From Monosiga brevicollis MX1 (lineage: Eukaryota > Opisthokonta > Choanoflagellata > Craspedida > Salpingoecidae), in the NCBI RefSeq assembly GCF_000002865.3, contig NW_001865084.1, positions 176,230 to 224,463 on the forward strand: DNA of 48,234 nt. Direction: 5' to 3'. A program made the position numbers and the translations under genes. The notes beneath the pieces were generated by a model that did not search any database, was not told where the DNA came from, and saw only the letters and a program-made list of their open reading frames with translations. Shown here piece by piece: positions 208 to 47,700 of the stretch. How positions within the stretch are numbered: the stretch's first letter is position 1; every line of letters starts with the position of its first letter.

Positions 208-3200
208 ATGTACAAGCACGTGACGCGGTTTAGCCGCGCCGTGGGCCAGTGGCTCAAGCCGGGCTCGGCATTGCCCAGCGGTTCGCGCCCCTTTTTGGCC
301 GCGTACAGCACTCAGCCCGCGCCCACGGAGCAGTTCATGTCCGGCACCTCCGTCGCATACTACGGTTTGTGTGCATTTGCCTTTTTTTCGCTCTCCATTT
401 TGCATGTGGCAACGCACCTTGTTTTCTCCTCCCTGTTCTCACTCCAAACTTGGCCTTGGCCCGTAATCCGGACCATTCCTTTCCCCTTTTGGACAGAGGC
501 CATGTACGAGGCCTGGCGTGAGGACCCGAAGAGCGTGCACGCCTCGTGGCGCGCGTTCTTTGACAACGAGGCCAGTGGTCTCGGCAAGGGCCAATCCTAC
601 ACTCCGCCGCCCGTCGCCGGCCATGCTGCCCCCAGCGCCTCTGGAGCTGCCCCCACCCTCTCGGCCACCCATTCGGAAATCCTCAACCACCTGAAGGTCG
701 AACGCCTCATCCGCGCCTACGAAACTCGCGGCCATAACATTGCCAACCTTGACCCCCTGAACATCATGAACGCCGATCTCGACGGCTCGGTGCGTTCCTT
801 TCCCGCTTGGAAAAAAAAAAGCTTGAAAGTCTCTTTCTGTCGTTGCCACTGCACGCTCACACCGTGTGTTACAGACTCCCTCAGAGCTGACGCTTGCCCA
901 CTACGGTTTCACCGAGGCCGACCTGGACAAGACTGTTGTCGTGCCCCCCCACGCCATCTTTGACACGCAACAGGAGAGCCATCTTCCCCTCCGCACTCTG
1001 ATCGAGCGCCTGAACAAGGTCTACTGCTCGACCGTGGGCTTTGAGTACATGTTCATTCAGGTTTGTCAAAGTTATGCGGTTGCTCCCCCTCTTACACTTT
1101 GAAAGAAAGAGAGAGGGAAAAAAAAAAAAAGAAGAAGAAAAACATGGGAAAACAAATCTTCATAGACCCGAGAATACCAGCTGCTTTCTTTCTTTTGGCC
1201 AATGCCGACTCTATCCTCACCCAAACACACACGACCCCGGACTCTTGCTTTGTGGAACGGTTTCTGTTGCGTAGGAGCGCGATCGCGTCAAGTGGATCCA
1301 AGACAAGGTGTCGGAGCTTCAGCAGCCCACTTCGGCTGACCTCAAGCAGAAGATCGCCAAGGACTTGGTTGATGCTCGTGTAAGCGCTTGAGCTGGGCTC
1401 TCACTTTGCTGCTTGACGCATGTCCTTGCTCTTCCTCACATTCTGTTTTGGAACCTTCAGGGCTTTGAGCTCTTCCTGCAAAAGAAGTTTGTGTCGGAGA
1501 AGCGCTTTGGTGTCGACGGTGGCGAGGCCCTCATCACGGGCATGCGCCAGCTTCTGCGCCGTGGATCCGAGCTGGGCGTCGAGTTTGCCGTTTTGGGCAT
1601 GCCCCACCGTGGCCGTCTCAATGTTCTGGCCAACGTCATGAACAAGCCCGTCGAGCAGATTTTCAACGAGTTCCAGAGCAATCTCGGTATCGATGATGAA
1701 GGCTCTGGTGACGTCAAGTACCATCTGGGCATGTCCTCTGACGTCGTCTTTGACGACACGGGTAACCGCATGCACCTCTCCCTCATGGCCAACCCTTCGC
1801 ACCTCGAAGCCGTCAACCCTGTCGTCCTTGGCAAAGCCCGCGCCGAACAGGATTACCGCGGCGACACCAAGCGCAAGCGCGTCGTCCCCATCCTTTTGCA
1901 CGGTGACGCCGCCTTTGCTGGCCAGGGCGTCGTGTACGAGTGCTTTGGCTTCACCCAACTCCCTGCCTACACGACCGGCGGTACCATCCATGTGGTCGTC
2001 AACAATCAGATTGGTTTCACCACCGACCCCCGCTTTGCCCGTTCAACTCCCTACTCGACCGATCTTGCCAAGATGGTCGGTGCCCCCATTTTCCATGTCA
2101 ACGGCGACGATCCCGAGGCCGTCGCCCGTGTCTGCCAGGTGGCCATGGAGTGGCGTCAGGAGTTTGGCAACGACGTTGTCGTTGACATTGTCTGCTACCG
2201 TCGTTTTGGTCACAACGAAGCCGATCAGCCCGCCTTTACCCAGCCCCTGATGTACGAGCGCATTGCCGAGCAAAAGCCCGTGGACCAGATTTATGAGGAG
2301 AAGGTTGCCGCCGAAGGCACCATCGACGGCCAGTGGTTCGAATCAGCCCGCAAGACCTACGAGGAGAACCTCAACGCCGCGTGGGATCGCGCCCCGACCT
2401 TCAAAAACACCCGCCCCGAGTACCTGGGCTCGTGGTGGTCCTCTCTCAAGTCTCAGCAAGTCGACGTGGCCCAAATCTACGACACGGGCGTTGACGAGGC
2501 TCTGCTCAAGGAAGTTGGCACGGTACGTGTTTGATCCTGGCTCGTGAAGAGCGCGTTGACCGCCCCGATCACCCCGCTGCCAACCTAAATGCATGTGTTT
2601 TGTTGCAGTTGGTTGTCCCGCCTCCATCCTCATTCGATCGCTTTGTGTGGTACCACAGATTTTCAGCCAGTATCCGGATGACTTTAACATTCACCGCTCT
2701 CTCAAGAAGATTCTGCAGTCGCGTCTGGATAGCATTGTCGAGGACACGGGCATGGACTGGGCTACCGCCGAGGGTCTGGCCTTTGGTACCCTTTTGATGG
2801 AGGGCAAGGCTGTCCGCCTGAGTGGCCAGGACGTCGAGCGCGGTACCTTCTCGCAGCGCCACCACGTGCTGCACGACCAGAAGGTTGATGGCAAGACTTA
2901 CGTGTCCCTGCAGGAGCTGGCGCCGGCCCAGACCAACTACTCCGTCTCCAACAGCCACCTGAGCGAGTACGGTGTGCTGGGCTTTGAGCTTGGCTACTCG
3001 ATGGTCAACCCCCACTCGCTCATTTGCTGGGAGGCCCAGTTCGGTGACTTTGCCAACACGGCCCAGTGCATCATCGATCAGTTTATCGCTGCCGGCGAGC
3101 ACAAGTGGCGCCGCATGACTGGCCTGACCATGCTCCTGCCGCACGGTTACGAGGGCATGGGCCCCGAGCACTCGAGCGGTCGCATCGAGCGCTTCCTGCA

Positions 3201-33389: not shown

Positions 33390-35471
33390 ATGGAACGCAG
33401 CTCCTCCTCAGTGTCACCCATTCCGACGCGAAGGGAAAGGTCAACGGCGGTCGCCACTCATCCAGCCGGCCCAGGCATGCCTTCTTCCGATCACTCGGAA
33501 CCATCACATGCCCCAACCCAGCACAACGAGGCGACCGTGCCCGTTGACACCCAAAACCAAGACCCCGGTACGCAAGGGAGCAGCGGCAGCACCAGCAGCA
33601 ACAGCAGTATGCATTCAAGCAAAAGTATCAGCAGTGGTTCCGAGCATGACAGCGGCACTGGTACCGATGACACCAGCAGCGACGGCGTTAGTGAGTTACC
33701 TCTAGCAAGTGATGATGAAGCTCCCAAGTCTCGTCGACCGTCACCACTTTCACCGCCTACGCCACGACCCAGGCTATTGAAACATGCCCCAGCACAGGCT
33801 GTTCATGACGCGGGACAGTCTCGCACCCGTCAATCCGCACCGGCCGCACGTCTTTGCAGCCCAACTTCCTCCAAGGCAGGCGACCGCACAGCTGCTCCAA
33901 ACGGTGATCAAAGGGGCTGTTCTTCCTCTTCTGCAAAGGCAGCAACCCTACCTCCCGCTTCCTTCAAACGCTCAGCTGTCCAATCACTCGCTCGAGGCAA
34001 AGAATCCCCCGCCCCTTCCCCGGAAAGCAATACATCCCTGCCGACTGGCGCCCCCCCTGTTTCCAAGCGTGCTCGAGCTGATGGAGGCCTGGGCAAGCAG
34101 CAGAAGGAAACCTCACAGCCGTTGGCTCAACGTTCTGTGTCGCGCACCTTGGACGCCGTCAAGCGGCGCGACAAGGATGAAGTGGTGGAAGAGGAGGAGG
34201 GAGATATCGATAATCTCGATGAGGAGGATCATGAACCATCTCTGACTGCGCTGAAGGGGATCTCAGATCATACATTGCTGGGCCCGCGCCGCACTTTTAA
34301 CTTGCACCTGAAGCAAAACGCTTTGAGGCCTGATGAGGTGGCAGCTTTGAAGCGATTGCGACGACGCCGCCTAAACGCGCTCTATGCCCGCGGGAGTCGT
34401 CAGCGCAAAAAGCACCGAGCAAAACTGGCTGCCCGGGAGGCGGAAGATCAACAAGACGTGGCCACCATGCACGGGCCGGACAACGGGATGATTCAGCGCC
34501 AGATCAGACAACTGCGGGTTGCTTTGGCTGCGTGCTTGGCAGATCGTCAGTTTCTATTGCAGCGACTAGGCGCCGTGGGCATGGGTGTGGACCTATCTGA
34601 GATGCGCTATCAGCCCAACATGGAAGACTCGACCACCGTCACGGTTAAGGCGCCTTCCAAGCCAACGATACGCATTGGCAATGCTCAGTCCGCTATGCGC
34701 TCCTCTGATCGTGTGACGAGATTGTCGTCCACAGCCGTTCCAGACTCGGACAAGGAGCCCGGGCTCGCAAGCCGCGCGCACAGTCACGAACGTGCGTTCT
34801 TTGTGGATGACGAGGATGATCAGCCAGTTCGACAAAAGCAGAGTACCAAAGAGCGGGACGGGCATACTCAATCGTCACCAACAAGGCGAGCAAGCTCATC
34901 GCCGCAAGCAAAGAGCAGGAAGGGGGCATCCCAATCTGCCGCCTACGCAGGGCCGCAACCAATGACATGGAGTGATCATGGCCCGTCATCCCAGCTGGCA
35001 CGCATGCCATCCGTATCGATGGAGTTTGAAAGGTCTGACATCATGCCAGCGCCCCCGAATGGGTTTTCGACACCAGTGCCCCATCTCCAACTCGACGTGC
35101 GAGCTCAAATGAATGTCCAGGCTCATATGCAAGCTCAAGCTCAAGCCCAAGCCCAGGCCCAGGCTCAGGCCCAGGCCCAGGCTCAGACCTTCAACATGTG
35201 GCAAGCCCACAACATGTATCCATACGCGCCACCATCAACGCACTATGCAACAACGCCGGCCGTCGTGGCCCTGAATCCGCAGCCCCAAGCAAACATGATG
35301 ATGGGCGGCAATACAGGATACCCCGTGTATGCACCGTCCCCCGGCATGCCCGCGCAACTTCATAGACCCATGGGTGCTGTGCACCCGCTCTCTGCACTCG
35401 CACCGCGCATGTCTTGGACCCTTGGCGCTCCCGTCAATCACCCCTCCCGTACACAAACATCAAGCCCCTAA
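33390..35471 (+). CDS. Maf/CNC-like bZIP transcription factor, intronless
   Basis: One uninterrupted 693-codon frame, unlike its intron-rich neighbours. Residues 1-280 are Ser/Pro-rich with an acidic cluster (VVEEEEGDIDNLDEEDHE). Residues about 300-345 form a basic region: LRPDEVAALKRLRRRRLN, then ALYARGSRQRKKHR. Asn-329, Ala-333, Ser-336 and Arg-337 match the bZIP signature NxxxAxxSR. Tyr at the fourth place and the preceding TFNLHLK segment resemble the extended homology region of Maf and CNC proteins. A short leucine-rich helix (367-395, IRQLRVALAACLADRQFLL) could be the zipper, but a break (HGPDNG) separates it from the basic region. The C-terminal part has Gln-Ala dipeptide repeats. It is probably a nuclear DNA-binding regulator. 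The family call rests on motif reading only. Confidence 0.75.
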   Translation: MERSSSSVSPIPTRRERSTAVATHPAGPGMPSSDHSEPSHAPTQHNEATVPVDTQNQDPGTQGSSGSTSSNSSMHSSKSISSGSEHDSGTGTDDTSSDGVSELPLASDDEAPKSRRPSPLSPPTPRPRLLKHAPAQAVHDAGQSRTRQSAPAARLCSPTSSKAGDRTAAPNGDQRGCSSSSAKAATLPPASFKRSAVQSLARGKESPAPSPESNTSLPTGAPPVSKRARADGGLGKQQKETSQPLAQRSVSRTLDAVKRRDKDEVVEEEEGDIDNLDEEDHEPSLTALKGISDHTLLGPRRTFNLHLKQNALRPDEVAALKRLRRRRLNALYARGSRQRKKHRAKLAAREAEDQQDVATMHGPDNGMIQRQIRQLRVALAACLADRQFLLQRLGAVGMGVDLSEMRYQPNMEDSTTVTVKAPSKPTIRIGNAQSAMRSSDRVTRLSSTAVPDSDKEPGLASRAHSHERAFFVDDEDDQPVRQKQSTKERDGHTQSSPTRRASSSPQAKSRKGASQSAAYAGPQPMTWSDHGPSSQLARMPSVSMEFERSDIMPAPPNGFSTPVPHLQLDVRAQMNVQAHMQAQAQAQAQAQAQAQAQAQTFNMWQAHNMYPYAPPSTHYATTPAVVALNPQPQANMMMGGNTGYPVYAPSPGMPAQLHRPMGAVHPLSALAPRMSWTLGAPVNHPSRTQTSSP
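35098..35188 (+). repeat. Coding Gln-Ala dipeptide repeat
   Basis: Hexanucleotide units of the CAGGCC/CAAGCT kind encode about twelve Gln-Ala pairs in the C-terminal half of the bZIP protein. Synonymous variation (CAA/CAG, GCT/GCC) mixes the units, so the peptide repeat is older than the latest DNA slippage or is selected. Confidence 0.85.
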
Positions 35472-37792: not shown

Positions 37793-39967
37793 TTAACTGC
37801 ACAGCGGGCACGAAGCATTCGCACTCAAGACTTGACAGTCACCCAAGCCGTCGAGCTCGCTCGCAGCCATTGTGAGGTTTAAGACAGGATTGTTGCAAAT
37901 CCGAATCGCGGTTCCCGTCGAAACGAGCGCGCCCAGACCACTGATACTAGACAGCTTGGCATTCTCCTGAACATGAAGAAAAAAAAAAACAAAAAAGGAG
38001 GTCGGCAAATCCAATGTTGAATCAGCAAAAAAAAAAAAAAAAAAAGGATAAAAAATTAGACTCGGCAAAGGTCACACGCTCTGGATCGTGGGAGAAGTGG
38101 AACGCGGGCTTTCCGAAACTTACGGCAATGTACAAGTTGCCTTCGATCGATTCGATTCGGCTCAAGCCGTTCAAATCAGAGAGCTCAGTGTTGTTCTACA
38201 CCAGAATGTATGATTGAGTTTTATTCGGAAACCAGGTGGACCTGATCCCACTCACAAGACATATACCACAGCCATCAATAGCGCCCGGTATAACTCAAAG
38301 TACCGCGCAATTTCATACATTGATGTGCAGGTTACCGCCAATGTGAGTCACGTTGCTCAGCCCGTCGATTGTTGTCAAGGCCTTGTTTTCCTAACGTGTG
38401 CACGGTGAGATCCATGCATTGCCTCGACACCCAGGCCAGCCAACCCGACGTTTGTACACTGGTGTGCCTGCCTCGAGACTGTGTGACCTCAAAGGGACAA
38501 GGGACCGCTCGATGGCACTCTTACGCGGATGAAGAGATAGCCTGGGATATCAGTGAGGTGTCCAAGCCCGCTCATATTTGACAATGCATCGTTGCCCTGC
38601 GCAGTTGATTCCGCGGAGTCAGCATGGAAGCACGTATGCTTGGGGGACAGTGGTGGACTGTGCTCGCAAACTTACATAAATGGATAGGTAACCGTTGAGA
38701 GTTGACAGCTGATGCAAGCCGCCAAGACTGGCAAGACGCGAATTGCCCTACAAAAATGAATGATATTAATCAGTGTTGTGACCACGATCTTACGCTACCA
38801 GGACGCACATCCCAACCTACAAAGATAAACAGGTCACCGCCAATTGCCTTCAGCATTCCCAAGCCGTCAATGTCCATCAGTGCCTTGTTAGCCTGAATGA
38901 GGTCAGCAACCAACACGCCGAGTTTCAGTGGCAACCAGAAACGCATTCGTAACGTAAGAGATGGAGCACCGGTATGTAACCAAGCGCTCAATGTCGATCT
39001 GCAGCATCACCCACAAAAATCGTCAACCCAGACCCCACGGAGCCCAGCTGCTCGAGCCCTGCGAGGCGACTTAAGGCATGATTGCCCTGTCGAAAAATAA
39101 ATCAAGGAGGTCGGATCCGTGAGAGAGGGCAAAGAATAATATGATGGATTTACCAGGGTCAGGTAAGAATCTCACGCACGTCAAGAGAGAAAGAGCCGCC
39201 TATCAACTGAAGGCGTCTCAGACCTTCAATGCTCGTCAAGCCTCCGTTGTTCTGACAGCAAGGAAGTTCTCAGGATCAGAGCGATGCCGCCGTCACAGTG
39301 CTCGTGCAACCAAGATACAATTCCGGAAAATCAAAGATGGCAAGCTTACTTGGATATAAAGAGACCCACCGACCGTGGTGAGGCGGCCAAACGCGTCAAG
39401 ATGAGCCAAGGCACCATTTTGCTATCACCGGGAAGAGGAACAGCCAAAGTGAACGATGAAGCTGGGCGAACTGAGCACGAAAGCAGGCCCAAAAGCGAAA
39501 CCTACAGCAATCCTCAAATCTTCATCAATGCGGACAAGGCGCTGAAAGACCTGCAGGTCTGATGCTTGCAGGGACGTGCAGGTGTTCAGGTCGACGCTGC
39601 CTTTGATGTGCGTCACATTGGTCGGCACGTCGATGAAATTGCAGCCAACGCTCTGATCATAGACGACCGGTGGATCCGTTGGAGAAAACGGGGTGGTTGA
39701 TGCTGGCGGTGTTGTCGCGCTTGGAGTCGACGCGGCGGAATCCTGACCATATTCCGCTCGCAGCTCGGCCAACTCGCCCAACACATCCACGCCGTTCAGG
39801 TAAATTCGTGAGTCACTCGACGAGCCACCACTGCTTATATGCAGGTGGCCATCGGCATCGACCTCAATGGTGGGATCACCAACAATTTCACCAGCCTTCA
39901 CGGACATTACCACCCCACACACCATGATCACCGCGGCGCTGGCGACACAGCCCAACAGCCGGGTCAT
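37793..39967 (-). CDS. Secreted L-domain-type leucine-rich-repeat protein, one exon per repeat
   Basis: Ten minus-strand exons: 39967-39506, 39421-39350, 39251-39180, 39086-39015, 38892-38821, 38747-38676, 38596-38525, 38390-38319, 38195-38124, 37966-37793; 403 residues. Exon 1 encodes a signal peptide (RLLGCVASAAVIMVCGVV), a segment ending RIYLNGVDVLGELAELRAE, a Thr/Pro/Ser linker and the start of the repeat region. Exons 2-9 are each exactly 72 nt, phase 0, and encode one 24-residue repeat of the form xNxxLxxLxGLxxLxxIGGxLxI. This is the receptor L-domain type of LRR. Exon 10 starts with a ninth repeat and ends in a Cys-containing cap (CQVLSANASCPLCS). There is no membrane anchor at the C-terminus, so it should be secreted. 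Its role could be adhesion or ligand binding. It is divergent to a related gene at 41.5 kb. Confidence 0.88.
37966..39421 (-). repeat. Array of eight 72-nt LRR exons plus a ninth repeat
   Basis: Internal exons 2-9 of the L-domain gene all measure 72 nt and have phase-0 borders. Introns between them are 73-134 nt, with 157 nt before exon 10. Most repeats start with Asn as second residue (NN, GN, AN, EN) and end with a beta-strand residue next to the donor. Confidence 0.9.
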
Positions 39968-40331: not shown

Positions 40332-40710
40332 GCCAACGGTCATACCACATGGAATACACCGGCTCTCGTCCGATCGCCGCAGTTAAGCCATGTTGGGCCA
40401 TGCTAGTACTATCGTGGGTGACCAGATGGGAATACATGGTGTTGTTGGCCTCTTGATATTTTTTTCTTGCGACGATTTTAGCTTCTTCTTTTTCTTTAAC
40501 ATTTTCAGCAAAGGTTTCCTTACGCGAGATTATCACTTCTTCATCTGCTTGATATTCTTCGACATTAACTTTTGTGCCCTTGGTGTGTGGGCTAATTCGA
40601 TCATGCGCAAAACTTGATCCTGGTGCGAGCGATAATAAGGGGTCACTGGTTGAGGAGGAGAGCAGAGTGCCGGCGTAGAGACAGCAAGTCAAAAGCAGCA
40701 GGGTATACAT
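40327..40710 (-). CDS. Doubtful secreted-protein ORF antisense to the 5S gene
   Basis: An ATG at 40710 opens a 127-codon frame beginning MYTLLLLTCCLYAGTLLSSS, which looks like a signal peptide. A charged, possibly coiled segment follows (ETFAENVKEKEEAKIVARKK). The last 40 codons are the exact antisense of the 5S gene, so at least that part is a shadow. The first 85 codons could be a real exon spliced elsewhere or a gene remnant. No homolog is recognised. Confidence 0.22.
   Translation of the reverse strand: MYTLLLLTCCLYAGTLLSSSTSDPLLSLAPGSSFAHDRISPHTKGTKVNVEEYQADEEVIISRKETFAENVKEKEEAKIVARKKYQEANNTMYSHLVTHDSTSMAQHGLTAAIGREPVYSMWYDRWQ
40332..40450 (+). rRNA. 5S ribosomal RNA gene
   Basis: A stretch of about 119 nt begins GCCAACGGTCATACCAC and ends GTGTTGTTGGC, so the two ends pair to form helix I (GCCAAC with GTTGGC). 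Conserved 5S elements follow in order: CTCGTCCGATCGCCG, then AGTTAAGCCATGTTGGGCC (internal control region), TAGTACTATCGTGGGTGACC, and GATGGGAATACATGG. The length and element order match eukaryotic 5S rRNA. A run of seven T follows nine bases downstream, a Pol III terminator. Only one copy is in the window, not a tandem array. Confidence 0.93.
40459..40465 (+). terminator. Pol III T-run terminator of the 5S gene
   Basis: Seven consecutive T residues start nine bases after the 5S 3' end, the standard RNA polymerase III stop signal. Confidence 0.85.
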
Positions 40711-41491: not shown

Positions 41492-44072
41492 ATGCTGCGC
41501 CACATCGCCATTGTCGCCCTTGCGGCGCTACTCTCACTGCCTCCCTCGGCCTCGCAATCCATTGATTCCAATGCTGGTCAGAACTCAAACGCTGACTCTT
41601 CCCCACCTCTCTCGTTCTGCTGCTTCTGGATGCCATGCCGCGTCAGTGTCGTATGCTCACATCTGCCGAATTCTCTCGTTCCCATTTCTCCTGCCTCCCT
41701 GCCGCCCTGATAATAGTGCTTGAAGCCATCAAGGATCATTTGCATCCCATCTGCACCTCTCATGGTGTCAGCGTGATTGACAACGCAACCAATACCAAGA
41801 CGTGCCTGTGCGACAGCAGCTACGCGGGTGACTCTTGCGAGTAGGTTTTTTTATTTTTTATTTTTATTTTTTTTTTTTTGTCACGTTGCGCATTCTGCTC
41901 CGCCCACACCAAGCCCTTACCAATGGCCTATCTGCACTCTGTAGCGAGTTCGTGGGCGTGGGCATACTGCGCTGTGCGCTGGCGGGTGATGTGCCCCTGC
42001 TTCTCACCGTGCTTGAAGGCGTGACGACGCTCCGTGGCGACCTTGTCATGTCGGATGGCTGCGTGACGGCTGATGCCATCACCGCCGTGGGCAAGCTCAC
42101 CAAGATCGATGGCAACGCTTTCATCTATGACCCGACCACACCGACCCAGCTTGCCACGGACTGGCCCGAAAATCATTGGGAAACTGTGACCGGCTGCATC
42201 GCCCTGGCCAATCTGCCCGAAGCCGGCCTTGTTGGACGCACGCTCTTCCCTGATCTCACTGAGCTTGGTGCTTGTTCACTCGACGAGGTGGAGAGCAAAC
42301 TGCCCTCGGCCTACTGGGACACGTTTGTCAATCGAACCATCCCGCCTCAAATCTCGATGATGCTCAACCACATTGGAGCGGACCACGAGGCCTGTGTCAG
42401 CGGCTGTGACAACATTTCCCTTGCTTCTAAGCTGCGCACGATGCCCGGTGCCCTACTGCTAGATGACCTGCCCGCCCGAGACCTCAACGAAGGTCTCCTG
42501 GAACACGTGGGCGGCCTGCACGTCCGCAACTGCCCCCATGTTGAAATCTTGGGCACGTCCCATCTGGCGACCATTGGCGAGCACGGCCTGCTCCTTCGTG
42601 AAACCGGCCTGAAGAACCTTGACGACCTGGCAGGGGTTCAAGTTGTTCGACTTGGCTTTGTGGATATCACAAGCAACGACCACCTGGAGAATGTGCTGGG
42701 CTTCAACCCGACTGTTGTCGAGCGCAGCGGCACGGTCAGCACCTCTGTTGAATTTCAGCTCGTATGCCAGAACGGCTATCATTCAGGCTTTCCCGAGACC
42801 GAGTGTACTTGCGCCTCGCCCGAGTACTCGGGCAAGCTGTGCGACACCATCACCGGTGACTTTTTCTGCATGGACTTTGCCCAAGCCGAGACCCTCAACC
42901 AGACCCTAGCCAACGTGCGCCACGTGATTGGTAACATTCATCTGACTGACACGTGCATGGAGATGTCGTTCCTCAACTTCCCCTACCTCACGAGCATTGA
43001 AGGCAGCCTCATTGTCAACTCCTTTGGCATGCCCATTGTCGAGCCAGGCTTTCCGAGTTTGAAGTCTGTCTCGACCGTGCACATCGAGTCTGTACCCGCA
43101 ACCAGCATCGATTGGCTGCCCGAGCTCGAGACGGTGGGCTCGCTGAGCATCCAGAACAACGACCAGCTTACCAACCTGTCGGGACTCGCCGCGCTGACCA
43201 CCATCGACGAGGCACTCGAGATCTTTGCGTGCCCTGCGATGACCTCGTTTACCGGCCTCGAGAATGTGGCGCGCATTGGTTCGCTCTCCATCGTCTCCTC
43301 AAATTCGTTAACCAACTTTTCAGCCCTCAACGGTGCCGAGCCGGTGCTTCTGCTCGGTCAGAACTCTGCACCAGCTCTGAGCATTGATGCGTGCGCAGAT
43401 TGCGAAGCTCTTTGGTCGCACTTGGTGGAGACGGTCGAGATTGCTGACGGCGCCAGTGTCAGCGTGCCGTGGTCTACCTGTGGCGGCTTTGGCACGGTGC
43501 CGGCTGGTAGCCTGTCTTGCGCCTGTAACCCAGGCTACACAGACTACATGTGCACCGGCTACAACGGCGATGACTTGATCTGCAACGTGTCGACCGCCAG
43601 TGACATCAAGGCAATGCTTGCTGGCGTCACCCACCTCTACAGCCCTCTAGTCCTTCTCCTTTATTGTGGCGCTGGCTCCAGCTATGGACTTTTGGACACG
43701 GTGACATACGCAGCCGCTCTCTACTTTGAAGATGCCATCGATTATCAGGGCCAGATCCCGGCGGGACTGGGCTATGTGAGCATCTTTGAGACGCAATTAT
43801 CTGACATGTCGCTCTTTGGCGCAGTCACGCACATTGACAGCCTGGAGATTAACAGCAACGAATACATGACCACTTTGGATGGCCTCGAGAGCCTGGAGAC
43901 AGCGGGCCAGCTCGTGGTTTACAACAATCCCACGCTGACCAACGTGGATGCGCTCGGCAGCCTCCTCAGCGTCACCGGCGACCTCATCATCGTCAACAAC
44001 GATGTGGACGTCAACGCCATCGCCTTTGACGTCAACGCCATCTCCACCAACACCACCCTAGTCACCGGCTAA
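41492..44072 (+). CDS. Secreted L-domain LRR protein with EGF-like modules
   Basis: Exons 41492-41576, 41717-41840 and 41945-44072 give 778 residues. Exon 1 encodes a signal peptide (LRHIAIVALAALLSLPPSAS). Exon 2 encodes an EGF-like piece (CLCDSSYAGDSC). The 2128-nt exon 3 encodes at least three blocks of L-domain-type leucine-rich repeats of about 22-25 residues (for example LTNLSGLAALTTIDEALEI). Cys-rich EGF-like linkers separate them (CTCASPEYSGKLC and CACNPGYTDYMC). No transmembrane helix is visible, so secretion or wall/ECM attachment is expected. The arrangement resembles the ligand-binding half of EGF/insulin-receptor-like ectodomains but lacks a kinase. It is probably a paralog of the divergent gene at 37.8-40.0 kb, with the repeats in one exon here. 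Confidence 0.85.
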
Positions 44073-44773: not shown

Positions 44774-47700
44774 ATGAAAGGGGAAGAAAACATTGTCCTT
44801 GAACACGTCTCATCAGCCTCAAGGACGCACGCCTCGTCGTCCTTGTTTTCGTAGGTGCACCAGAAGAGCACGCGCATCACACTATATGGAACATCGCTGC
44901 TTCGATACCGAGAAGATGATGGCTGCTTTCATTGCCCCGTGGGAGGATGCCACTATCGCCATGGACTCTCAGCCAACCTAAAATCACACCTCCAGCATCT
45001 GCATGAGAAACAGACGACACCCAGAGCAGCAATACCGGCGGCTGTGACTTGCGACCGGCTGCCTGCTCGCCAAAAACCTACTCGGACGCGCATGAAAAAA
45101 CGTGTGGTCAAGCTTGATCAACAGCACGGCATAGCCGCGGCTCGAATCTTCATGGGCGAGATTGGTTGCCTTGTATCCCCTGTTTTTGAATCTCCAGTGT
45201 GCACGCAGTGCGGCCATGTCCTGAGAGGCAGGGCGACGCACCATCTGTTCAAAAAACACCATGTTCGGTGCAGCCAGGAAGACATTGATGCAGCTATGGC
45301 ACTCCTGCGCCCACTGCAGCCCGAAGAGCCGCTGCTTGACCTCGGAGTTGAATCTGGGCCCCATAAGCCTATTGAAGGCATTCCCGTTCTGGACGGCGTG
45401 GGTTGCCCCTTGTGTCAGGCTTGCTTCACCACAAAAGGCAGTCTGTGGCATCACATCGTAGCCGAGCATCCCGACGAATCAGAGGCCAAGCAGCCGCCTC
45501 GACGCGTCAAGCTGCAAAAGCCGTTGCGCGGTGCCGGAGCCCGCTGTATCGAGGTCATTGTCGAAGATGGCCACGATGCCTCGGCAGCCGACGTCAGCGA
45601 AAACGAGGAAGAGCTGGAGGAGCAGCAGCGGTTCAAGCAGCTGATCTCCAGCACCCAGGCCATGGCGTCAGAGGCCGAGGAGAAGCGCTGCCCGCACGGC
45701 GTTCACCAGATGCACCCGTTCTACGATAGTGTGGGCATGACGCTGATCCTGAGCGAGCTGACCCCAGAGCAAATTCTCAAGCTGGGCCACGACACCCCAC
45801 CCGCACCACTCGTGTCAGGCATGCACGAGCTCTTGTGGGAGGCCCACGGACAATTGTCCCAGCACGGCCTGGCGGCTGCTTCCGTGGCGTCCTTGTTCGA
45901 AGATGAAGAGTTGCAAGTTGAGCCACAAACTTTACCCCAAGTATCTCCTGGCACGATGAGCAGATACCTAAACATTGGAGCGCGGTTGGTGCATTTTATA
46001 CTGCTACTGGACGCACTGCCAGCCCCCGAGCCATCCAGCTTTTTGAGCCAGGTGCTCGCCAGTCGTGGGGAGGCCATAACTACAGCTGCTTTGGCCGTGC
46101 AAGACGCGCTGGATGCGGGACTGAGCGGGGAGGATCTTGTCGAGCCCTTGGCGGCACTGTGGCTGGCACTGGTGAATGCAGAGCTACATCTGTTTGACAA
46201 CGACAAGGTGCACTTTGTCAACGTGTTTTTGTTGTGCACGGCCGTGTCCAAGGGAAGCGGTGTCTTGCAAGACATCCGGCGCTGGACCACAACGCAGGCC
46301 GGTTTGATTTATATTTTCAAGCTGTTTTTGCTCCGGTTTGGCAAGGCACAGCGATGGGCCACTGCGGGTAAACTCAGGCCTTTTCTACAGTCTGGACGGC
46401 TGGTGCATTTTCTGAGCCAGCGCATGACGGCGGCTCGCTCTTCCAGCACGGCCGATGGGCAGGTTGGAGTGGATATTGACGTGCAAACGGACGGTGACAT
46501 GACGGACGAGGCGCTGCACACCATTGTTTGTCAGGGTACTGAACTCAACGTGAAAGAGATTGGGACCGCCCTGGTACAGATGCGCAACGATATGAAAGAA
46601 ATTTTAGACACCCACCTCTTGCTGGGATCGGATCTGCGAGAGCGACATGCTCTCGAGTATGTCCGGCTACGGTCGAAGGAGGATCGGACCAACAGGGTCA
46701 AGAATTGGTGGGTGGGCCATGACAGCCCAGCTGAGCGGGCCCTATTGGATCACATTGGCCAGACTCCGAGCTTGCGGCAAGAATTTATCTGCACGGAGCT
46801 TGGCCCAGAAGGAGCTGATGAAGAGCCGACCTTTCGAGAAGACCGCGTGCGGGAATGGCTTCTATTTGTGGGCAGGTTCAACCAGCTGGCGCTCACCTAC
46901 ACCCACATGGCTGGAGGTACGCTTGCGATCGAGCAAAGACTCTGTTTGAGAAGCTTGGCATGTTTATTGTACCACTCTTATCTGTTTGCATTGGCTTTGG
47001 CGTTTTGTTAGGTCTGCCACCTCAAGCAACCGTATATCAAGGGCTATCCTACAAAAATGGCGTGGGCCGGCAACGGGCCGTGTTTTTTGCTGGAAAGCAG
47101 CTCTCCATATTGACTCGTCTGGGTAAAACCCACGGGCTCTCTCTAGATGAGCAGCACGCCTTTCGGTACATGGACGAGGAAGTCAGCAAGCTGATTTTCA
47201 TGTATTTGCTCTTGTGCAAGCCTCTGGAGCAGATGCTAACCAGCTGGCTGGAGAAGCGGGGCGCTCTTCAAACCCCTCGCGATGGCGGGCGTGGAACCTA
47301 CGACAATGATCAGGAAGAGGAGGATTTATTGGAGGACGAGGGGGATGAAGACCACATGAGCCACGACGATGGCATGACCTTGCGACGCGAGGTACAGGAC
47401 GCTCAACGCCACTACAACAACAGCCACTTGCTCTTCAACATTGCGCCTCTGCAGACCATGCTCAGCCCAGCCTCTATCTACGCTGCCTTTCGTCGACAAA
47501 TGGCCACCTACCTGCATCAGCCTACGCTTGGAGTGGCAAAGTGGCGACACGCTGCTACCTTTTGGATGACAACATTTGTGACAAACCGGCTCTTTGCCGA
47601 CCCCGCGAGCACTTTGGGTAGCCTGATGCGCACCCAGGCACAGCCCTTGGGCAACATGGCCAAAGACTTCTTTGCTACCGCAACAAGCTACCAATTGCAA

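Follow-up and report, generated by a model that had tools for sequence, protein, structure and literature searches.

The window analysed here, a stretch of 48,234 nucleotides of the Monosiga brevicollis MX1 genome (contig NW_001865084.1, C11:176230-224463), carries on its minus strand, at 37793-39967, a gene of ten exons. Its exons were spliced in frame from the sequence and give an open frame of 403 codons. The features of the gene are listed below in the order of transcription; exon 1 was assigned from the spliced frame and exons 2-9 from the frame and the repeat scan.

39506..39967, minus strand: exon 1, from the start codon to the first repeat
39893-39967, minus strand: signal-peptide-like first 25 residues of exon 1, as judged by eye
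Within 39506..39967, minus strand: conserved N-terminal module of exon 1, GHLHISS..RIYLNGVDVLGELAELR, with matches upstream of 29/30 array loci
39506..39967, minus strand: in the part of exon 1 after the module, a Ser/Thr/Pro-rich stalk, a two-Cys N-cap and then the first repeat
39350..39421, minus strand: exon 2, 72 nt, one 24-aa repeat, phase 0/0
39180..39251, minus strand: exon 3, 72 nt, one 24-aa repeat, phase 0/0
39015..39086, minus strand: exon 4, 72 nt, one 24-aa repeat, phase 0/0
38821..38892, minus strand: exon 5, 72 nt, one 24-aa repeat, phase 0/0
38676..38747, minus strand: exon 6, 72 nt, one 24-aa repeat, phase 0/0
38525..38596, minus strand: exon 7, 72 nt, one 24-aa repeat, phase 0/0
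38319..38390, minus strand: exon 8, 72 nt, one 24-aa repeat, phase 0/0
38124..38195, minus strand: exon 9, 72 nt, one 24-aa repeat, phase 0/0
37967..38123, minus strand: intron 9, 157 nt, T-rich (runs read in the sequence)
37793..37966, minus strand: exon 10, with the last repeat, a four-cysteine C-cap and the TAA stop; the cap is conserved in 22 aligned terminal exons

A preliminary description of the locus had proposed that exons 2-9 of an L-domain gene are all 72 nt long, of phase 0, and that each encodes one complete repeat of 24 residues. This structure was confirmed in 8/8 exons, with AG/GT flanks and phase 0 on both sides, and translation gave one complete repeat per exon in 8/8 cases. 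The range assigned to the array, 37966-39421, does cover exons 2-9, and it extends further, over intron 9 as far as the first base of exon 10. The L-domain identity was likewise upheld, the protein matching PF01030 (Recep_L_domain) with 57.4 bits (E 1.9e-15) against a Pfam cut-off of 21.8. This is the only Pfam domain above cut-off; in particular, no ROC-COR domain was found above it. The best sequence match to a solved structure, the insulin receptor-related protein, is weak (E 0.021).

The consensus of the eight repeats is xNxALxxLxGLxxLxxIGGxLxIx, and the seven repeats of exons 3-9 are 33-42% identical to the first, that of exon 2. The nine introns measure 73-157 nt and are all of phase 0. 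The repeat is cut at one and the same position by the end of exon 1 and by the start of exon 10, so all nine introns lie at one point of the repeat unit. Retention of an intron breaks the frame or introduces a stop in 8/8 introns counted, and no membrane segment was found after the C-cap in the frame of exon 10.

Downstream in window coordinates, on the plus strand at 41835-44072, there is an open frame of 745 aa with a Recep_L_domain match of 31.5 bits (cut-off 21.8). Its DNA has copies on C48 (93% identity), C45 (98%), C46 (99%) and C47, C23 and C33 (83-84%), and on C11, C47 and C33 the copy lies near an array gene. A segment of about 137 bases at 40332-40468 recurs at no fewer than 27 further short places with 90-99% identity and looks like a small dispersed mobile element. 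The open frame at 44855-47011 (plus strand), near the scaffold end, has OrsD as its best Pfam match (25.4 of 26.6 bits) together with C2H2 fingers, below cut-off, and the end DNA of C51 resembles the window at 47.7-48.2 kb by eye. The open frames at 1413-2534 (plus strand), matching dehydrogenase E1 with E 3.2e-54, and at 33390-35471 (plus strand), matching bZIP Maf with E 1.6e-6, are ordinary neighbours.

A Sec1 fragment encoded in the genome matches PDB 2xhe chain A (UNC18), described as M. brevicollis Munc18 in PMC3693963, at 39/39 residues; from this one protein fragment the genome reads as that of the choanoflagellate (taxid 81824). The M. brevicollis genome (39.47 Mb, 57 contigs) was searched for related loci by tblastn with the window protein and with repeats from C36 and C17; the loci were fetched and scanned with a repeat matrix blind to splice sites. 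An array locus was defined by at least two 72-nt exons. The matrix was built from exons of the array family itself, several loci were fetched in part, and tblastn matches outside the fetched set include C51:1392k and C33:47k, so that all counts of loci and repeats are lower bounds. The scan gave at least 30 array loci with 276 repeats, and 72-nt exons numbered from 2 to 19 per locus, some loci being partial. Exact AG-72-GT flanking was found for 235/276 repeats. The remainder consists of 22 terminal repeats that lack a donor, 4 repeats located in first exons and 15 irregular ones, six of which fit 69 nt while nine, all internal, fit neither 72 nor 69 nt with standard sites. Outside the arrays ten further groups were detected, with 27 repeats of which one has AG...GT flanks; a lone array-type terminal exon on C52 is one of these groups.

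Given how often AG and GT occur in the fetched DNA, a chance flanking pair is expected at 0.36% of positions. The donor position +5, which was unused for selection, is G in 224/229 array introns, as against 26.9% after GT generally, and retention breaks the frame or adds a stop in 218/229. The flanking count set against its chance expectation, the +5 G and the effects of retention rule out chance or a misread frame as the origin of the pattern. A column-shuffled scoring matrix gave zero hits in three tries, which, there being no hits, says nothing about flanks. At least 30 loci of M. brevicollis are arrays of symmetric phase-0 exon modules. No earlier description of this family was recognised in the literature at the level of titles and the opening parts of abstracts.

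Within 50 kb of a scaffold end lie 23 of 31 loci (the 30 arrays and the C52 terminal exon), for which uniform placement would give at most 14.4% (P 1e-13); when loci are merged into clusters the figure is 17/24 (P 6e-10). In a rough control, ten hand-picked other L-domain matches (C56:1784k, C36:452k, C45:254k, C45:798k, C27:138k, C35:166k, C22:50k, C38:81k, C54:829k and C48:393k) are all more than 50 kb from an end, that on C22 only just. The multicopy L-domain open frame without exon arrays, of which the frame at 41835-44072 is one copy, has 6/7 copies within 50 kb of a scaffold end, and the position is therefore not peculiar to exon arrays. Repeats of the TTAGGG/CCCTAA type were found at none of the 11 readable ends among the 19 fetched scaffold ends, the other 8 reading N. 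Assembly breaks may favour repeat-rich ends.

The architecture of the window protein recurs through the family. With window exon 1 as query, a same-strand upstream match was obtained at 29 of the 30 loci, C50 being the exception; two of these matches are weak (E 0.007 and 0.018). The first exons of 10 loci can be aligned and show a GNLxINSS...LNGVDVLxEL module, followed by a stalk rich in Ser/Thr and by a Cys N-cap. Several of the first exons begin with a hydrophobic stretch, as judged by eye at 16 loci, of which at least one, C36, was read in the wrong frame. At the other end, all 22 terminal exons read (of the 30 loci) carry a cysteine-rich C-cap followed by a stop, 54-60 residues past the acceptor. 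The cap has four cysteines, two invariant and two present in at least 90%. With the stop directly after the cap in 22/22, the membrane segment of a PF01030-type receptor architecture is probably lacking, though the transcripts may hold a further spliced exon. Two proteins gave nothing above cut-off in NCBIfam. The N-terminal module, the hydrophobic starts and the C-cap with its stop make the array proteins look secreted, and on these features the family is probably secreted.

The first exon of the gene at C10:196k (L045, C10:196216-196539 and upstream) contains several copies of the LNGVDVL module, which is also present in other long open frames, for example at C55:9031 (3170 aa); the first exon tested against Pfam gave nothing above cut-off. 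In the array gene at C18:109k (L031), the first exon has a mucin-like stalk with a tandem Ser/Thr-rich TSTTLA repeat.

Relatives of the repeat occur in bacteria. Bacterial and archaeal genomes were scanned with four repeats of C12A, used as exact peptides (C12A being the locus C12:45k and C12B the locus C12:84k), and this identified 26 bacterial loci in Saprospiraceae, Deltaproteobacteria, Flavobacterium, Planctomycetota and others; a single viral scan gave no relatives. The bacterial loci hold 218 repeats, of which 0/218 have AG...GT flanks, and 156 of 192 steps from neighbour to neighbour are multiples of 72. These intronless Receptor-L-type repeats share with the M. brevicollis arrays the unit of 24 aa and the most variable positions, and the one bacterial open frame tested matches Pfam Recep_L_domain; the ends of five frames differ by eye from those of the array proteins. 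The bacterial consensus NNDALTNVDGLSALTSVGGDLSIS is identical to the array consensus NNDALTNVDGLGSLTSVGGYLSIY at 20/24 places. Array exons compared with equal-sized bacterial sets gave a mean best identity of 0.543 (lowest of 200 draws 0.518), 36 of the 218 bacterial repeats being left out because they contain the search peptides. Identity to the 26 intronless repeats of the genome itself was lower, 0.49. Having been found by exact C12A peptides, the bacterial set leans towards similarity, and a possible transfer of the repeat from bacteria is to be taken as a lead, not a result.

The preliminary description had expected such exons to be an ideal substrate for repeat-number variation and had suggested that alignment of the eight exons and their introns would date the duplications. 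The first expectation is supported for the family, in which young arrays display tandem duplication of exon plus intron, and is not supported for the window gene, where no recent duplication was found. There the identity between neighbouring introns is 0.43-0.54, with a mean of 0.44 for shuffled sequence. Tandem Repeats Finder found nothing in the window array, and the window gene is not among the 9/30 arrays with within-gene intron matches at E 1e-4. The nearest-neighbour exon lies in the same gene for 92/235 exons, where 4% is expected, and for 0/8 exons of the window gene. Judged by its dissimilar introns, the missing tandem repeat and intron match and the lack of same-gene neighbours, the window array is old; other arrays are young.

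Adjacent introns are 0.74-1.0 identical in 6/6 pairs of C12A, 12/14 of C12B, 3/3 of C50 and 3/5 of C27:522k, and 0.50-0.62 identical in C36 and C37. The introns of C50 measure 122/122/122/122 nt and those of C12A 118/126/126/127/126/126/127 nt, their sequence being conserved, and L046 contains a 198-nt tandem repeat in 12.3 copies. Homology of introns within C12A, C12B, C50, C27:522k and C33:233k means that duplication of the unit is needed at least in these genes. The paralogues C12A and C12B are 94.6% identical in their 5' flank (737 columns), and their first array exon and intron differ at 1/72 and 0/118 positions. Their interior exons match out of order, and 8 repeats were detected in C12A and 16 in C12B, which has one further, frame-damaged copy. 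Gain and loss of whole repeats are thus seen in the young arrays. Two C12B exons are apparently one base short, at 71 nt (L050/L046: C12:84102 and near 84497); skipping, decay and assembly error are all possible readings of these.

Exon transfer between unrelated genes of the family was considered and rejected. Among the 235 exons the two C12 genes alone provide cross-gene pairs that differ at 9/72 positions or fewer. Between other genes, introns match over short stretches, the best match listed per gene pair being 28-44 nt long, and in four gene pairs that include the window gene the listed match falls in window intron 9, by eye an apparent T-rich run. What the family shows is duplication of exon units and, strictly, not the joining of modules from different genes.

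Variation of the predicted binding surface was compared with several yardsticks at codons 19, 20, 22, 24 and 1, which we take to be exposed from the LRR strand motif L21-x-I23-x-x-N2. Over all exons the most variable repeat positions are 24, 22, 3, 1 and 20. Relative to the introns of the same array, the first- and second-position diversity of exposed codons is 3.12-fold in C12A (P 0.0002), 2.73-fold in C12B (P 0.0002) and 2.62-fold in C50 (P 0.0022), and it fails to stand out in C27:522k (1.13-fold, P 0.32). Relative to fourfold sites, exposed codons are in excess in 4/26 arrays at a nominal per-array P<0.05, namely C27:522k (P 0.004), C12A (0.011), C12B (0.0006) and C33:233k (0.0022). These four are exactly the arrays with fourfold diversity below 0.2. 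In the other 22/26, with fourfold diversity of 0.30-0.78, there is no significant excess, as in C50 (P 0.29) and the window gene (P 0.93). Whole-exon pN/pS is below 1 in 7/7 arrays computed (0.50-0.76). Synonymous divergence is above that of introns in 7/7 (pS/pI 1.07-2.30), so that homogenisation or constraint may act on the introns, whose use as a neutral standard is doubtful. Bacterial repeats vary at the same positions, and part of the pattern could therefore be due to tolerance. The concave strand tests positive for diversification in the youngest arrays, with a mixed outcome overall; diversifying selection on the concave face is likely, though not proven, and in the window gene the age of the array would leave selection undecidable.

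We consider it probable that the window gene belongs to a secreted family of LRR proteins of the Receptor-L-domain type, with exchange of repeat units, diversification of the concave face, a role as extracellular variable binders and an origin of bacterial type. Each protein of the family opens with a signal-peptide-like start, followed by the N-terminal module and a stalk; after these, a row of 24-residue repeats lies between a cysteine N-cap and a C-cap with four cysteines. Almost all internal repeats form their own 72-nt phase-0 exon, cut just past the variable beta-strand (between LxIx and xN). Unequal crossing over or slippage between homologous exon-plus-intron units may then add or remove whole repeats, which the uniform length and phase of the units allow without loss of frame. 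Selection would subsequently diversify the residues predicted to line the concave face. The proteins are most likely variable ligand binders outside the cell, perhaps for bacteria or for other cells. As the same kind of repeat is intronless in bacteria, the family may descend from a repeat gene of bacterial type, in which an intron was presumably gained in one repeat and spread by unit duplication.

It is conceivable, if doubtful, that this is an ordinary secreted LRR or matrix family with no role in recognition, whose uniform exons are a relic of duplication and whose variable positions simply lack constraint. The whole-exon pN/pS values, below 1 in all seven arrays, the bacterial repeats with their equally variable positions and the absence of recent duplication from the window gene would all be compatible with such a family. 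Tolerance alone, however, would not predict what the youngest arrays show, in which exposed sites exceed fourfold sites or introns, and the change in repeat number and interior order after a gene duplication whose flank is still 94.6% identical also argues against it.

The preliminary description had also raised alternative splicing, and the exons might mainly serve exon skipping that alters the binding surface within an individual, as in the ROCO genes of brown algae. Leaving out a phase-0 exon of 72 nt keeps the frame, brown algae are reported to make alternative transcripts from arrays of this kind (PMC11378527), and the two frame-damaged exons of C12B would be harmless if skipped. The near-universal G at donor +5 (224/229) speaks against this as the main function, which we regard as unlikely. 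Repeated and independent insertion of introns at the same repeat site, with a uniform length that merely reflects the 24-aa repeat and with late unit duplication, could draw on the mostly uniform 72-nt intronless repeats of the bacterial relatives, on old arrays such as the window gene with unalignable introns of unequal length and on the 21/30 arrays that have no within-gene intron match, but the homologous introns within C12A, C12B, C50, C27:522k and C33:233k, and junction residues 24 and 1 that are among the most variable and leave no shared insertion sequence evident, make it quite improbable.

The secreted, unit-exchanging LRR family favoured here may be set beside several known systems. 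The variable lymphocyte receptors (VLRs) of lampreys and hagfish have a row of 24-aa LRR modules between cysteine caps and a variable concave face, and they are assembled somatically from cassettes; the M. brevicollis arrays stand complete in the one assembly. A VLR-like repertoire of secreted binders near the chromosome ends, with repeats acquired from bacteria, divided into single exons and varying between strains in number and surface through exchange of exon-intron units, would be a modular system for recognising non-self or prey; this reading seems rather improbable. Metazoan exon shuffling of class 1-1 uses phase 1-1 modules, unlike the 0-0 modules of the arrays. Gonadotrophin receptors are membrane receptors with introns of phase 2, as opposed to the phase 0 found here. 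In the vertebrate gonadotrophin receptors roughly one exon per LRR, with introns all of one phase, is described (PMC11378527).

A close parallel is offered by the LRR-ROCO genes of the brown algae Ectocarpus and Saccharina, for which one LRR per 72-nt exon in phase 2, tandem arrays, exon turnover and positive selection on the concave face are reported (PMC11378527, PMC4104024), as is alternative splicing (PMC11378527). The M. brevicollis arrays share with them, as there described, the one-LRR exons of 72 nt, their tandem arrangement and exon turnover; the brown-algal genes are phase 2 ROC-COR GTPases, whereas the present arrays are of phase 0 and of a secreted-looking L-domain type. In Tetrahymena, LRR genes with exons of 90 bp are described as uniform arrays with an extreme bias to phase 2, expansion by unequal crossing over has been proposed, and the youngest genes are placed in subtelomeric and pericentromeric regions (PMC6564038). 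That system comprises thousands of genes and is associated with a retrotransposon, as against at least 30 loci, 72 nt and phase 0 in M. brevicollis. One-LRR-per-exon arrays are already known from accounts of brown algae and Tetrahymena, and M. brevicollis adds phase 0, repeats of the L-domain type and a secreted-looking architecture. Taken with the brown-algal and ciliate cases, the family would be a further, differently phased origin of such arrays, for which the intronless bacterial counterpart offers a comparison. Two questions become testable, one being whether repeat turnover is promoted by introns, the other whether secreted recognition proteins are diversified in choanoflagellates. A review citing Franca et al. 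states that M. brevicollis gives no evidence of exon shuffling (PMC8001218); if the VLR-like reading were true, a modular recognition system would exist in a lineage reported to lack such shuffling.
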